Assembly: GCA_026874595.1 (NCBI GenBank)
Contig: CM049307.1
Span: 53,071,870 to 53,135,869 of the forward strand
Source of the DNA: Sipunculus nudus
Taxonomy: Eukaryota > Annelida > Sipuncula > Golfingiida > Sipunculidae
Direction of reading: 5' to 3'
Length of the DNA: 64,000 bases
This document shows, piece after piece, positions 45,283 through 50,531 of this stretch (positions within the stretch are counted from its first letter, which is position 1; every line of letters begins with the position of its first letter). The notes beneath the pieces are model-generated. The model made no database searches. It had not been told where the DNA came from and saw only the letters and a list, made by a program, of their open reading frames with translations. Made by a program: the position numbers and the translations under genes.

Positions 45283-48200
45283 ACAAGACCTACAGGCCTA
45301 ATGCGAACCGTGCAAAGTTTGGGAGTATGAATGGAAGTTTATTTTTAAAATTTAATATTGATCCTCTTAAGTCCTGCATATCTATCTTAGTCATTATAAT
45401 TTCAGCAAAATGGACGTTTCGCACCTGCAAGTTTCAGACTAGGACATTTGAAAACTAGAATATGGATAATCGACAAGCGACTATGTGTATCCGCAGAAAT
45501 CAGAGTGGGACAGGTGAAGTGAGGCATGGATTAAGTGGCAAGGGGAAAAGAGTGAGGTGTGTGCATATTAGCATGGATGTCTGCAGCGTAAACGTGAATA
45601 TAGGTGGTGCCCCCTGTCATAGAATCGAGAAAATTGTCAAGGATGTATAAACCTGCAAAATTTCAGGTGGATAAGTCAAACCATTGCTGAGATATGAGTG
45701 ATTTTATACCAAGGTAGATGAACAGATGGACGCTGTGCATAAGTGGTTGCAGGTGGCGCCACCAGTTTTGCCTATGATGGAGAGGTATGTGAGATATATA
45801 CAACAGCAAAATTTTGGCCCAATTGGTCAAACGGTTCCCGAGATATGAGCTACGATGTCTGCAGAGTAAACGTGAATGTAGGTGGTGCCACCTGTAAAAA
45901 AATCGAGAAAGCTGTCCAAGATGTATTAACCTGCAAAATTTTAGGTGGATAAGTCAAGCCATTTCTGAGATATGAGTGATTTTATCCCAAGACAGATGAA
46001 CAGATGGACGCTGTGCATTAGTGGTTGCAGGTGGCGCCACCAGTTTTGCCTATGATGAAGAGCTATGCGAGATCTATACACATGCAAAATTTTGGCCCAA
46101 TTGGTCAAACAGTTCCCGAGATATGAGCTTGGACGTCTGCAGAGTAAACCTGAATGTAGGTGGCGCCACCTTTCATAAAATCAAGGGAGCTGTGCAGGAT
46201 GCATAAACCTGCAAAATATCAGGAGGAAAAGTCATACCACTGCTGAGATATGAGTGATTTTATCCCAAGGCAGATGAACAGATGGACGCTGTGCATAAGT
46301 GGTTGCAGGTGGCGCCACAAGTTTTGCCTATTATAAAGAGCTATGTGAGATCTATACACATGCAACATTTTGGCCCAATCGGTCAAAAGGTTCTCGAGAT
46401 ATGAGCTTGGATGTCTGCAGAGTAAACCTGAATGTAGGTGGCGCCACCTATCATAAAATCAAGAGACCTGTCCAGGATATATAAACCTGCAAAATTTCAG
46501 GTGGATAAGTCACACCACTGCTGAGATATGAGTGATTTTATCCCAAGCCAGATGAACAGATGGACTCTGTGCATAAATGGTTGCAGGTGGCGCCACCAGT
46601 TTTGCCTATGATGAAGAGCTGTCTGAGATCTATAAACCTGCAAAATTTTAGGTGGATAAGACAAGCCACTTCCGAGATATAAGTGATTTTATTCCAAGGC
46701 AAATGAACTGATGGACGCTGTCCATAATCGGTTGCAGGTGGCGCCACCAGTTTTGCCTATGATAAAGAGCTATGTGAAATCTATACACATGCAAAATTTT
46801 GGCCCAATTGGTCAAACAGTTCCCGAGATATGAGCTTGGATATCTGCAGAGTAAACCTGAATGTAGGTGGCGCCACCTTTCATAAAATCAAGAGAGCTGT
46901 GCAGGATGTATAAACCTGCAAAATATCAGGTGGAAAAGTCACATCACTGCTGAGATACGAGTGATTTTATCCCAAGGCAGATGAACAGATGGATGCTGTG
47001 CATAAATGGTTGTAGGTGGCGCCACCTGTTTTGCCTACCGTAAAGAGCTATGTGAGATCTATACACATGCAAAATTTTGGCCAAATCGGTCAAACGTTCC
47101 CGAGATATGAGCTACAATGTCTGCAGAGTAAACCTGAATGTAGGTGGCGCCACCTGTCATTAAATCGAGAAAGCTGTCCAGGATGTATAAACCTGCAAAA
47201 TTTCAGGTGGATAAGTCAAGCCACTTCTGAGATATGAGTGATTTTATCCCAAGGCAGATGAACAGATGGACTCTGTGCAAAAATGGTTGCAGGTGGCGCC
47301 ACCTGTTTTGCCTATGATGAAGAGCTGTCTGAGATCTATACACATGCAAAATTTTTGCCAAATCGGTCAAACGGTTCCCGAGATATGAGCTTGGATGTCT
47401 GCAGAGTAAACCTGAATGTAGGTGGCGCCACCTGTCAAAAAATCGAGAAAGCTGTGCAGGATGTATAAACCTGCAAAATTTTAGGTGGATAAGTCAAGCC
47501 ATTTCTGAGATATAAGTGATTTTATTCCAAGGCAAATGAACTGATGGACGCTGTCCATAATTGGTTGCACGTGGCGCCACCAGTTTTGCCTATGATAAAG
47601 AGCTATGTGAAATCTAAACACATACAAAATTTTGGCCCAATTGGTCAAACAGTTCCCGAGATATGAGCTTGGATATCTGCAGAGTAAATCACTGCTGAGA
47701 TACGAGTGATTTTATCCCAAGGCAGTTGAACAGATGATTGCTGTGCATAAATGGTTGTAGGTGGCGCCACCTGTTTTGCCTATGATGAAGAGCTATGTGG
47801 GATCTATACACATGCAAAATTTTGGCCAAATCGGTCAAACGTTCCCGAGATATGAGCTTCGATGTCTGCAGAGTAAACCTGAATGTAGGTGGCGCCACCT
47901 CTCATTAAATCGAGAAAGCTGTCCAGGATGTATAAAAAACCTGCAAAATTTCAGGTGGATAAGTCAAGCCACTTCTGAGATATGAGTAATTTATTCCAAG
48001 ACAAATGAACAGATGGACGCTGTGCATAAGTGGTTGCAGGTGGCGTCACCAGTTTTGCCTATGATGAAGAGCTATGTGGGATCTATACACATGCAAAATT
48101 TTGGCCAAATCGGTCAAACGTTCCCAAGATATGAGCTTGGATGTCTGCAGAGTAAACCTGAATGCAGGTGGCGCCCCATGTCATTAAATCGAGAAAGCTG

Positions 48201-50531
48201 TCCAGGATGTATAAACCTGCAAAATTTCAGGTGGATAAGTCAAACCCCTCTTGAGATATGAGTGATTTTATCCAAAGGCAGATGAACAGATATACGCTGT
48301 GCATAAGTGGCTGCAGGTGGCGCCACCAGTTTTGCCTACTGTAAAGAGCTATGTGAGATCTATACACATGCAAAGTTTTCGCCAAATCGGTCAAAAGGTT
48401 CCCAAGATATGAGCTTGGATGTCTGCAGAGTAAACCTGAATGTAGGTGGCGCCACCTATCATAAAATCAAGAGACCTGTCCAGGATATATAAACCTGCTA
48501 AATTTCAGGTGGATAAGTCACACCACTGTTGAGATATGAGTGATTTTATCCAAAGGCAGATGAACAGATATACGCTGTGCATAAGTGGCTGCAGGTGGCG
48601 CCACCAGTTTTGCCTACTGTAAAGAGCTATGTGAGATCTATACACATGCAAAGTTTTGGCCAAATCGGTCAAAAGGTTCCCAAGATATGAGCTTGGATGT
48701 CTGCAGAGTAAACCTGAATGTAGGTGGCGCCCCATGTCATTAAATCGAGAAAGCAGTCCAGGATGTATAAACCTGCAAAATTTCAGGTGGATAAGTCAAA
48801 CCCCTCTTGAGATATGAGTGATTTTATCCAAAGGCAGATGAACATATATACGCTGTGCATAAGTGGCTGCAGGTGGCGCCACCAGTTTTGCCTACTGTAA
48901 AGAGCTATGTGAGATCTATACACATGCAAAGTTTTGGCCAAATCGGTCAAAAGGTTCCCAATATATGAGCTTGGATGTCTGCAGAGTAAACCTGAATGTA
49001 GGTGGCGCCACCTATCATAAAATCAAGAGAGCTGTCCAGGATATATAAACCTGCATAATTTCAGGTGGATAAGTCACACCACTGTTGAGATATGAGTGAT
49101 TTTATCCAAAGGCAGATAAACAGATGGACGCTGTGCATAAATGGTTGCAGGTGGCACCACCAGTATTGCCTATGATGAAGAGCTGTCTGAGATCTATACA
49201 CATGCAAAATTTTGGCCAAATCGGTCAAACGGTTCCTGAGATATGATCGTGATGGTCTGCAGAGTAAATGTGAATGTAGGTGGGGCCACCTGTCATAAAA
49301 TCGAGAAAGCTGTCCAGGATGTATAAACCTGCAAAATTTCAGGTGGAAAAGTCAAACCACTGCTGAGATATGAGTTATATTATCCCAAGGCAGAAGAACA
49401 GATGGACGCTGTGCAAAAATGGTTGCAGGTGGCGCCACCATTTTTAATGTATGTTATTGAGCTATCAAAGAGCTACATTTGTGCAAAAATTTTAGCCTGA
49501 TCTGTCAAACGGTTCCTGAGATATGTAGGTTTATGTGTGGAAACAGACGCACAAATGGATGCTGGGCAGCAAGGAAAGGTCAGAGGTCAACCAAAAATGA
49601 GGACGCAGCAGTTCACATGTGACCTGATGATAAACCTGATTCATTTAAAATGCAAACCAAGTTTTTCAAACAGTTGAAGGATATAGTTCCAATAATCTGG
49701 GAATTCTGCATATAGACACATTGTCTAGACACCAGTCAGAGCCAGGTCAGTTGCCATGGTGATGTCTGGACCCCACCTGTTTGTACTGAGTGACCTCTTG
49801 ACTTGGCTGCTGAAACTCAGCATGTTGTCAAATCTGTTTTCAAACACAGAAAGCCTTTTTCAATTGGCTACAATGCTTTTTTAAAGCTGTATTTACCCAA
49901 TCTATTCTTATAAAACTGGCAGAACCCCACCATAGAATAATTCTTGTAAAGTTTAAACCAATCAGCTTAACAGTTTCATCATAAATCAGTGTATAAGCTA
50001 GAAGAGTTTAAAATTACATTTTCGCTTGTAAAAAACACATCAATGTAGGTGGCGCTAACAATACCTCAATTTCAGATATGACATATGTGACAAACATTTG
50101 TGTTAGTTTTGGTGATTATAGCTCTAGCTGTTTCTGATAGTTTAATTTAAGTGTGCTTTTTTGGACAGATTACTAAGTTCAACCTCCTGTAACTTTGCCA
50201 AAAATCTCCGAACTGGTACCATTCAAACAAACTTGAGAGAGGTTGTTCCAGGGATCATTTCTGTGAAATACTGCACAATTTGGCTGGACAGTTTTGGAGA
50301 AGAAGATTTTTAAAGCTTTTTTTAGCTTTTTCCCAATAAAATCTAAGAAAATGCTGTTAGAAAAAAATAAACAAAATCCAGTTTTTCAGATGACTGATTA
50401 TTTGCAAAAATTTGGTTATGTTGGCTTCTGCCATTTTTGAGATAGCTATAGTTAACGTACAGACGACACACGACACACGACGTATGAGGTACGACCCCCC
50501 ACCATCGCATAAGCTCACAGGTTCGCTTAAA
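45283..50531 (+). mobile_element. Family C element, copy 3, inserted in a zinc finger
   Basis: It starts ACAAGACCTACAGGCCTAAT then GCGAACCGTGC, and ends CACAGGTTCGCTTAAA. Removing it rejoins 'ccattttcttgaa' to 'acatttaccacaatct', which restores a continuous zinc-finger codon series (DCGKCFKK on the minus strand). No target duplication is evident, as expected for Helitron-type insertion. It carries the large B3 array inside and the usual C 3' core at 49640-50530. Confidence 0.82.
45454..49640 (+). mobile_element. Family B element, copy 3, with a long 278-bp tandem core
   Basis: The start is ACTAGAATATGG plus the stem-loop CGACAAGCGACTA-type and GTATCCGC. The core has roughly 14 dimeric units of 278 bp (for example 45743, 46021, 46299), each with two palindromes: one in TTGCAGGTGGCGCCACCAGT and one in TGTAGGTGGCGCCACCTGT context. 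A few units are shortened. The 3' hairpin is missing; the B text ends near 49640. Confidence 0.75.

Follow-up and report, generated by a model that had tools for sequence, protein, structure and literature searches.

A palindromic box shared by the central tandem repeats of non-coding Helentron-type elements in Sipunculus nudus and its possible role in element spread

Why should one short palindrome recur in mobile-element families that differ in their ends? The question is raised by a stretch of 64,000 nucleotides from Sipunculus nudus (GCA_026874595.1, contig CM049307.1, positions 53,071,870 to 53,135,869, forward strand; hereafter the window), where a 12-bp palindrome is repeated at 45454–49640 in the arrays of an element called B and is met again in families called C, D, E, F and G. 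We found that the palindrome is a conserved box in the tandem repeats of non-coding mobile elements. When up to two mismatches were allowed, 80 sites were detected in the 64 kb, 33 of them perfect, compared with a mean of 0.68 in 100 shuffled sequences. Twenty-eight of the sites lie at 45454–49640, including 19 perfect 12-mers and 11 perfect 14-mers (AGGTGGCGCCACCT), and their spacing alternates between 149 and 129 bp with few breaks (e.g. 151 and 190), which corresponds to a 278-bp dimer of two diverged half-units. The mean of 139 bp confirmed the periodicity given in a preliminary description of this locus, and the recurrence is far above the shuffled expectation. The palindromes named there for other families also exist, some of them 1–4 bases away from the positions given: those at 15279, 28682 and 39489 are perfect, the one at 36238 has one mismatch, and the one at 53717 is the CA form. 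The whole genome (1.43 Gb) contains 111,729 perfect copies, while the reversed word used as a control occurs 14 times. Among 20 random 10-kb stretches, 13 carried a site with two mismatches or fewer, and the 33 perfect palindromes found there were confined to five stretches, with 26 of them inside B elements. A literature search for the palindrome word GGTGGCGCCACC yielded nothing related, only an unrelated enzyme paper.

Two further arrangements were noted in the genome. At G000:C1:18362647-18364998, GGTGACGCCACC is repeated five times at exactly 585 bases, representing a further array type with a one-change palindrome, and at G000:C5:79594548-79626659, GGTGACGTCACC occurs four times at intervals of about 10.4–10.8 kb, suggestive of a large tandem duplication.

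To which kind of element do the B arrays belong? Self-comparison and end alignment revealed five B copies in the window, four of them with the array on the plus strand. The strands below are those of the element, whose layout is read opposite to its array.

45450..49650, minus strand: B element of the finding locus, its right side cut short, delimited by self-comparison and end alignment (3′ end 45450–45600; 278-bp dimer array 45565–49445; 5′-side remains to 49650)
45603..49439, no strand assigned: 28 P-box sites with at most two mismatches, 19 perfect
8719..11272, minus strand: B element inside a G element; relatives free of the interruption lie at 12.9 kb and 32.4 kb
58157..58763, minus strand: B element whose array is reduced to two half-units; the right junction matches that of 8719–11272
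59666..61434, minus strand: B element inside G-like sequence, with an uninterrupted relative at 12255
22208..23866, plus strand: old, diverged B element, from self-comparison and end alignment
59668..59723, minus strand: B 3′ end with CTAG terminus, stem-loop (fold z −3.9) stopping 11 bases before the terminus, and 3′ subterminal inverted repeat
61398..61436, minus strand: B 5′ end with the TTGTATCCGCC subterminal repeat and the adjacent inverted repeat (fold z −6.7)
61355..61387, no strand assigned: GCG microsatellite adjoining the B 5′ end

The element starts with TTGTATCCGCC, and its subterminal repeat, located two bases from the tip, folds on an adjacent inverted repeat. At the opposite end lie the inverted counterpart of this repeat and a stem-loop, and CTAG follows the inner stem at a distance of 11 bases. 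Subterminal inverted repeats of 10, 13, 14, and 14 bases were identified in four of the six copies tested, and the inverted match pairs a site lying about 34 bases inside one tip with a site 2 bases inside the other. Hairpins were obtained in three of five end pieces folded, namely the 5′ adjacent inverted repeats at 61398–61436 (z −6.7) and 11236–11273 (z −7.7) and the 3′ stem-loop at 59667–59716 (z −3.9), and the piece at 45452–45500 was unfolded (z 0.3). The 5′ tip is TT in five of six cases (TTGTATCC in five, ATGTATCC in one), and CTAG forms the 3′ tip in seven of the eight ends read, with T as the next base in six of those seven. Target duplication was absent at two B insertions compared with uninterrupted copies; junctions were also read in L012, L020, and L017, and the insertion site is T-rich, its exact base being ambiguous. 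None of the nine frames of at least 150 aa falls within a B element. An exact 18-mer of one B end has 4,272 copies in the genome (control 0), and each of the four B arrays found in the 20 random stretches is accompanied by whichever B end or ends fall within the stretch (in L006 partially).

The B arrays thus sit in a non-coding rolling-circle element of Helentron type, a HINE. The HINE features found are the subterminal repeats, the adjacent inverted repeat, the 3′ stem-loop, the lack of duplication, and the non-coding central repeats, and the tips (5′ TT, 3′ CTAG, insertion between A and T) resemble those of a proto-Helentron. As regards canonical Helitrons, the 3′ CTRR preceded by a hairpin at about 11 bases is present, and the 5′ TC is absent.

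What is it that the other families have in common with B? The repeats contain a unit of about 105 bp consisting of the palindrome, or P box (AGGTGGCGCCACC), and a Q box (GAGATATGAG) about 85–90 bases after P. A model of the 93 bases following the palindrome, trained on B only and with the palindrome itself excluded, matched 16 of 52 non-B palindrome sites at E < 0.01 and none of 800 control strands, and the matches kept the register except for one of the 16, which is the unit of a neighboring site. These matches include G (two and three units), F, an L019 family, and a family of 336-bp repeats. The proposal that the palindrome and its downstream words are common to families with different ends is supported for G, F, and the 336-bp family and weakly for C, E, and a second F-like family, whose matches are in register with E of only 0.02–0.5, and it fails for the D site at 53717, where the model recognized nothing beyond the palindrome (no match at E 0.5 or better). 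The sites in question are the following.

31858..33125, plus strand: G element, from self-comparison, in which three P-box units occur (32462, 32583, 32709); relatives at 8300–8722 plus 11273–12259, at 12766–13490 and at 58763–59671; unit-model matches at 11281, 12954, 32583, 58881 and 11401
28282..28905, plus strand: F units (28331, 28616, 28682), with B-module matches at 28331 (E 2e-4) and 28682 (E 4e-10)
14458..15744, plus strand: C units with the palindrome (15279) or a near form; colinear, non-significant match for 15279 (E 0.46); relative at 50043–50532
36238..36249, plus strand: E site with a single mismatch, matching the module colinearly but weakly (E 0.02)
39489..39500, plus strand: palindrome of the second F-like family, matching the module weakly (E 0.07)
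53717..53728, plus strand: D site, CA form, from the mismatch scan

Eleven family consensuses have in common AGGTGGCGCCACC, an AAATTT word, and GAGATAT. The 336-bp arrays in L004 and L008 run into an end different from that of B, with a hairpin and a GTCC-type microsatellite, and HINE-type features were seen at this one end of the family, its opposite end not being located (the L020 array shows neither end); an end of this type also terminates other elements at 39318 and 54178 of the window, and the orientation of the unit relative to the end is the same as in B. When G, C, E, F, and the 336-bp family were scanned for inverted repeats, a clear pair of ends did not emerge. The families thus share the unit and not an isolated palindrome. 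Insertion of one family into the others, considered earlier as a possible cause of sharing, does not account for it: although B is found within G elements, the latter possess units of their own. Core swapping, suggested early on, may have occurred, and common descent of the unit explains the sharing equally well. Beyond the S. nudus genome, the pattern of palindrome, 65–95 bases, and GAGATATGA was searched in two collections (no further animal collection), with one match in viral_contigs and two in genome_contigs; the sequence around each of the three is unrelated, and the unit models fit none of them.

The two window ends just mentioned, at 39318–39352 and 54174–54210, are those of a second HINE-like family and consist of a hairpin (AGCTCAG..CTGAGCT), a T-run, and a GTCC-type microsatellite, and one or both arms of such an end are present in 10 of the 20 random stretches.

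Is the box merely inherited, or is it maintained? In a first sample of 60 dimers in 12 clusters (from 86 model hits, of which 26 shorter ones were dropped), the palindrome columns had a mismatch of 0.069 versus 0.167 in the surroundings, a ratio of 0.41 (bootstrap 0.33–0.49). The second sample comprised 60 loci of 63 separate places among the first 100 matches listed for an exact Q-side 22-mer (10,576 copies), which was used to avoid selecting loci by the palindrome, and it gave 0.066 versus 0.132, a ratio of 0.50 (0.37–0.63). By both ratios the palindrome changes more slowly than neighboring positions; equal rates had been named at the outset as an outcome that would speak against a functional site. 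The variants were then divided into those shared by B copies and those private to one. Among the 60 loci, shared variants per 100 amounted to 3.14 in P without its central CpG, 3.06 in Q, and 11.96 elsewhere, and none of 5,000 random block pairs showed shared variation as low as P, while private variants per 100 were 1.46, 1.39, and 1.21, respectively. For 55 dimers of nine B elements, the shared values were 3.12 (P), 5.57 (Q), and 14.08 (other), and the private ones 1.10, 1.26, and 1.06. In columns without shared variants the private rate of P was 1.69 versus 1.63 (p 0.86) and 1.52 versus 1.58 (p 1.0). Consequently, P and Q are about four times less variable than the rest of the unit in the variants shared by B copies, and private changes are equal. 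Since the columns of a unit have one history and one age, a shared deficit combined with equal private rates means that lineages in which P or Q is altered are less successful at spreading and resting copies change freely. For one family and a one-contig sample, this suggests that the constraint acts on spreading lineages and not on resident copies.

The simplest alternative is that the palindrome is a relic inherited from an old satellite unit without any role, its slowness being due to chance and subfamily history. In line with this, resident copies accumulate changes in P at the usual private rate, and the unit is an old one that the families have in common by descent. Yet the columns of the unit have a single history, and the roughly fourfold lower shared variation of P and Q, unmatched by any of the random block pairs, is not what a relic would show; P is also the best-kept stretch across the 11 family consensuses, a count biased in its favor because the families were collected by the palindrome. 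We therefore regard a mere relic as unlikely.

We lean toward the reading that P and Q are cis-acting sites used in the propagation of the elements, within an old two-box unit of Helentron-type elements. The P and Q boxes together form the unit of the central tandem repeats in these non-coding rolling-circle elements and may serve in cis when the element is copied or the array is amplified, and copies losing P or Q would leave fewer descendants. The self-complementary P might, more speculatively, be bound by a symmetric (dimeric) protein of an autonomous Helentron or of the host. A wider version, which we hold only tentatively, is that P and Q were selected during spread and reused across differing ends, that one trans-acting factor drove the rise of more than 100,000 perfect palindromes, and that the central repeats are not passive cargo. 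The shared factor may be a Helentron protein; a host zinc-finger protein such as CTCF was ranked as the less likely candidate.

Does the symmetry of P itself matter? Altered forms had been taken for compensatory changes that keep the palindrome near-symmetric, an interpretation that the genome counts do not support. Each of GGTGGCACCACC and GGTGGTGCCACC differs by one change, which disrupts the central pair, and with 45,683 copies together they are 12 times as abundant as the matching non-CpG pair (3,798), which identifies them as products of CpG decay. The symmetric double form GGTGGTACCACC occurs 633 times (control 64), compared with expectations of 4,670 for independent changes and about 776 for a second change at the non-CpG rate; the symmetric double at positions 5/8, with 119 copies (control 53) versus 32 expected, is too near the background to count. 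Symmetric doubles thus show no excess genome-wide, and compensatory pairing within the palindrome was rejected on these counts of single and double changes. The central CpG has a shared variation of 13–15 per 100, versus 30–36 for CpGs elsewhere in the unit. The lack of excess also bears on the idea that neighboring palindromes pair in a single-stranded intermediate and shape the array in this way. Any two copies of a self-complementary word can pair, and the elements carry rolling-circle transposon ends; however, besides the missing double changes, the search of the window against Rfam at gathering scores gave no match to any RNA family, and we consider such a structural role extremely improbable.

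Could the box be kept for the benefit of the host, as a site of a CTCF-like or E-box factor? The E-box words noted in the palindrome are indeed found in B, where one half-unit has CAGGTG at its left side and the other has CACCTG at its right, but none is present in four of the 11 family consensuses, so an E-box was rejected as a constant part of P. The case for CTCF is that AGGTGGCGC sits in P twice in opposite sense and is present, according to two papers, in oligos of CTCF-bound sites, and that the genome contains a clear CTCF-like gene with 57% identity over 281/286 residues of the query (next best 41%). In the parts of the literature available, a CTCF-like motif is enriched at the borders of topologically associating domains in squid, and CTCF motifs lie at borders without orientation in echinoderms. 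Within P, G4 is the most variable non-CpG position in the 60 loci (12% at both sites) and T3 is nearly invariant (1.7%). The CTCF motif needs G4, so the pattern of change does not follow it; the identification of P as a CTCF site was dropped on these grounds and is kept as a lead. Moreover, private changes at P are undepleted, which means that resident copies are not kept. Taken together, conservation for the host seems very doubtful.

Another explanation is that P and Q are places of array recombination or conversion and that conversion keeps them alike. Arrays do shrink and grow (two half-units in the B copy at 58157 and about sixteen in the one at 8719, which has the matching right junction), and phase breaks occur. 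Nevertheless, the breaks located by eye near 46,620–46,650 and at 47,690 are not at P, and GC-biased conversion cannot explain the AT-rich Q, which is equally well kept in the 60-locus sample. A recombination box is accordingly quite improbable in our view.

The reading of P and Q as cis-acting sites has to be set against several observations that weigh against it. P is not the most conserved part of the unit, its two copies ranking 12th and 42nd of 236 windows with Q in first place, and its symmetry is not maintained by paired changes. The rates of P and Q come from the B family only, and the 60 loci represent the first 8.1 Mb of one contig, with an exact 22-mer favoring young copies. The ends are imperfect in places: an inverted match of 7 bases or more was not found in B8, the copy at 8719, the old copy, whose array is on the minus strand, has it only as pieces of 7 and 10 bases, and two of the five end pieces remained unfolded, one of them cut inside an arm. 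Finally, neither a binding protein nor an autonomous partner was found, the partner having been sought at four Rep loci. The genome has at least 143 matches to Helitron_like_N (Rep), and the four long-frame loci examined with full flanks lacked both B ends (best E 0.17) and perfect palindromes. A single 25-base match to the B unit was seen in L092 (E 0.003).

How does B relate to known systems? The closest likeness is to Cg_HINE of the Pacific oyster (PMC7492417), which according to the available text of that account has subterminal inverted repeats, an adjacent inverted repeat and a microsatellite at one end, a terminal palindrome at the other, central repeats (mostly of 140–180 bp), T-rich insertion without duplication, a constant orientation of repeats to the end, and two conserved segments common to otherwise different monomers. 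Compared by description and not letter by letter, B differs in that its repeat is a 278-bp dimer, each half-unit of which carries a perfect palindrome, and in that shared versus private change was measured. DINE-1 and HINE-Mo, as portrayed in the available portion of PMC4067079, resemble B in the subterminal inverted repeats of the 5′ tip, the 3′ stem-loop, and the lack of target duplication, and DINE-1 also in the adjacent inverted repeat; B differs from both in its CTAG 3′ tip, and that portion makes no mention of a palindromic box in their central repeats, such as B has. From the same portion, the proto-Helentron of Phytophthora infestans shares with B the 5′ TT, the 3′ CTAG, and A/T insertion without duplication, but it codes for Rep/helicase whereas B is non-coding and carries, in addition, central arrays and subterminal inverted repeats; the target letters of B can be placed only to within one or two bases. 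In bivalves, the pearl elements CvA, CvE, and CvG as well as MgE and DTC84 carry short arrays of about 160-bp repeats between their ends, a likeness by description only (PMC7492417, PMC11136912, as far as available). Oyster elements with satellite-like central repeats and two conserved monomer segments have already been described (PMC7492417). New are the perfect palindromic box and its counts, the fact that families with different ends have it in common, the mixture of tip types, and the contrast between private and shared change.

The surroundings of the locus contain further repeats. The B element of the finding locus sits between two arrays. One, at 42917–45276, is a zinc-finger-like tandem array with 28 copies of an 83-base unit instead of 84, which is read outside the usual frame by the frames 44197–44958 and 44234–45097 and looks as if a finger unit had lost one base before spreading as a satellite. 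The other, at 50527–52068, is a related array of 84-base units, whose open frame 51352–52068 (minus strand) reads by eye as C2H2 zinc fingers. Three related arrays of about 180-base units without the palindrome (6471–7649, 17462–18832, and 36606–37327) are perhaps the central repeats of another family. The segments 62109–62603 and 63506–64000, at the window edge, are 97.6% identical, and a 332-aa open frame at 3985–4983 looks by eye like a seven-helix receptor.

Comparing private with shared changes tells selection on the spread of elements apart from selection by the host and is applicable to any repeat family. A 12-base word present in 111,729 copies would titrate any protein that binds it, and, if the proposed role is true, the short palindrome could serve as bait for the binding protein. 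The usual view treats the satellite-like tandem repeats that HINEs carry in many animals as captured passive cargo. If the boxes are selected at the level of spread, the HINE repeats would be working parts of the elements.

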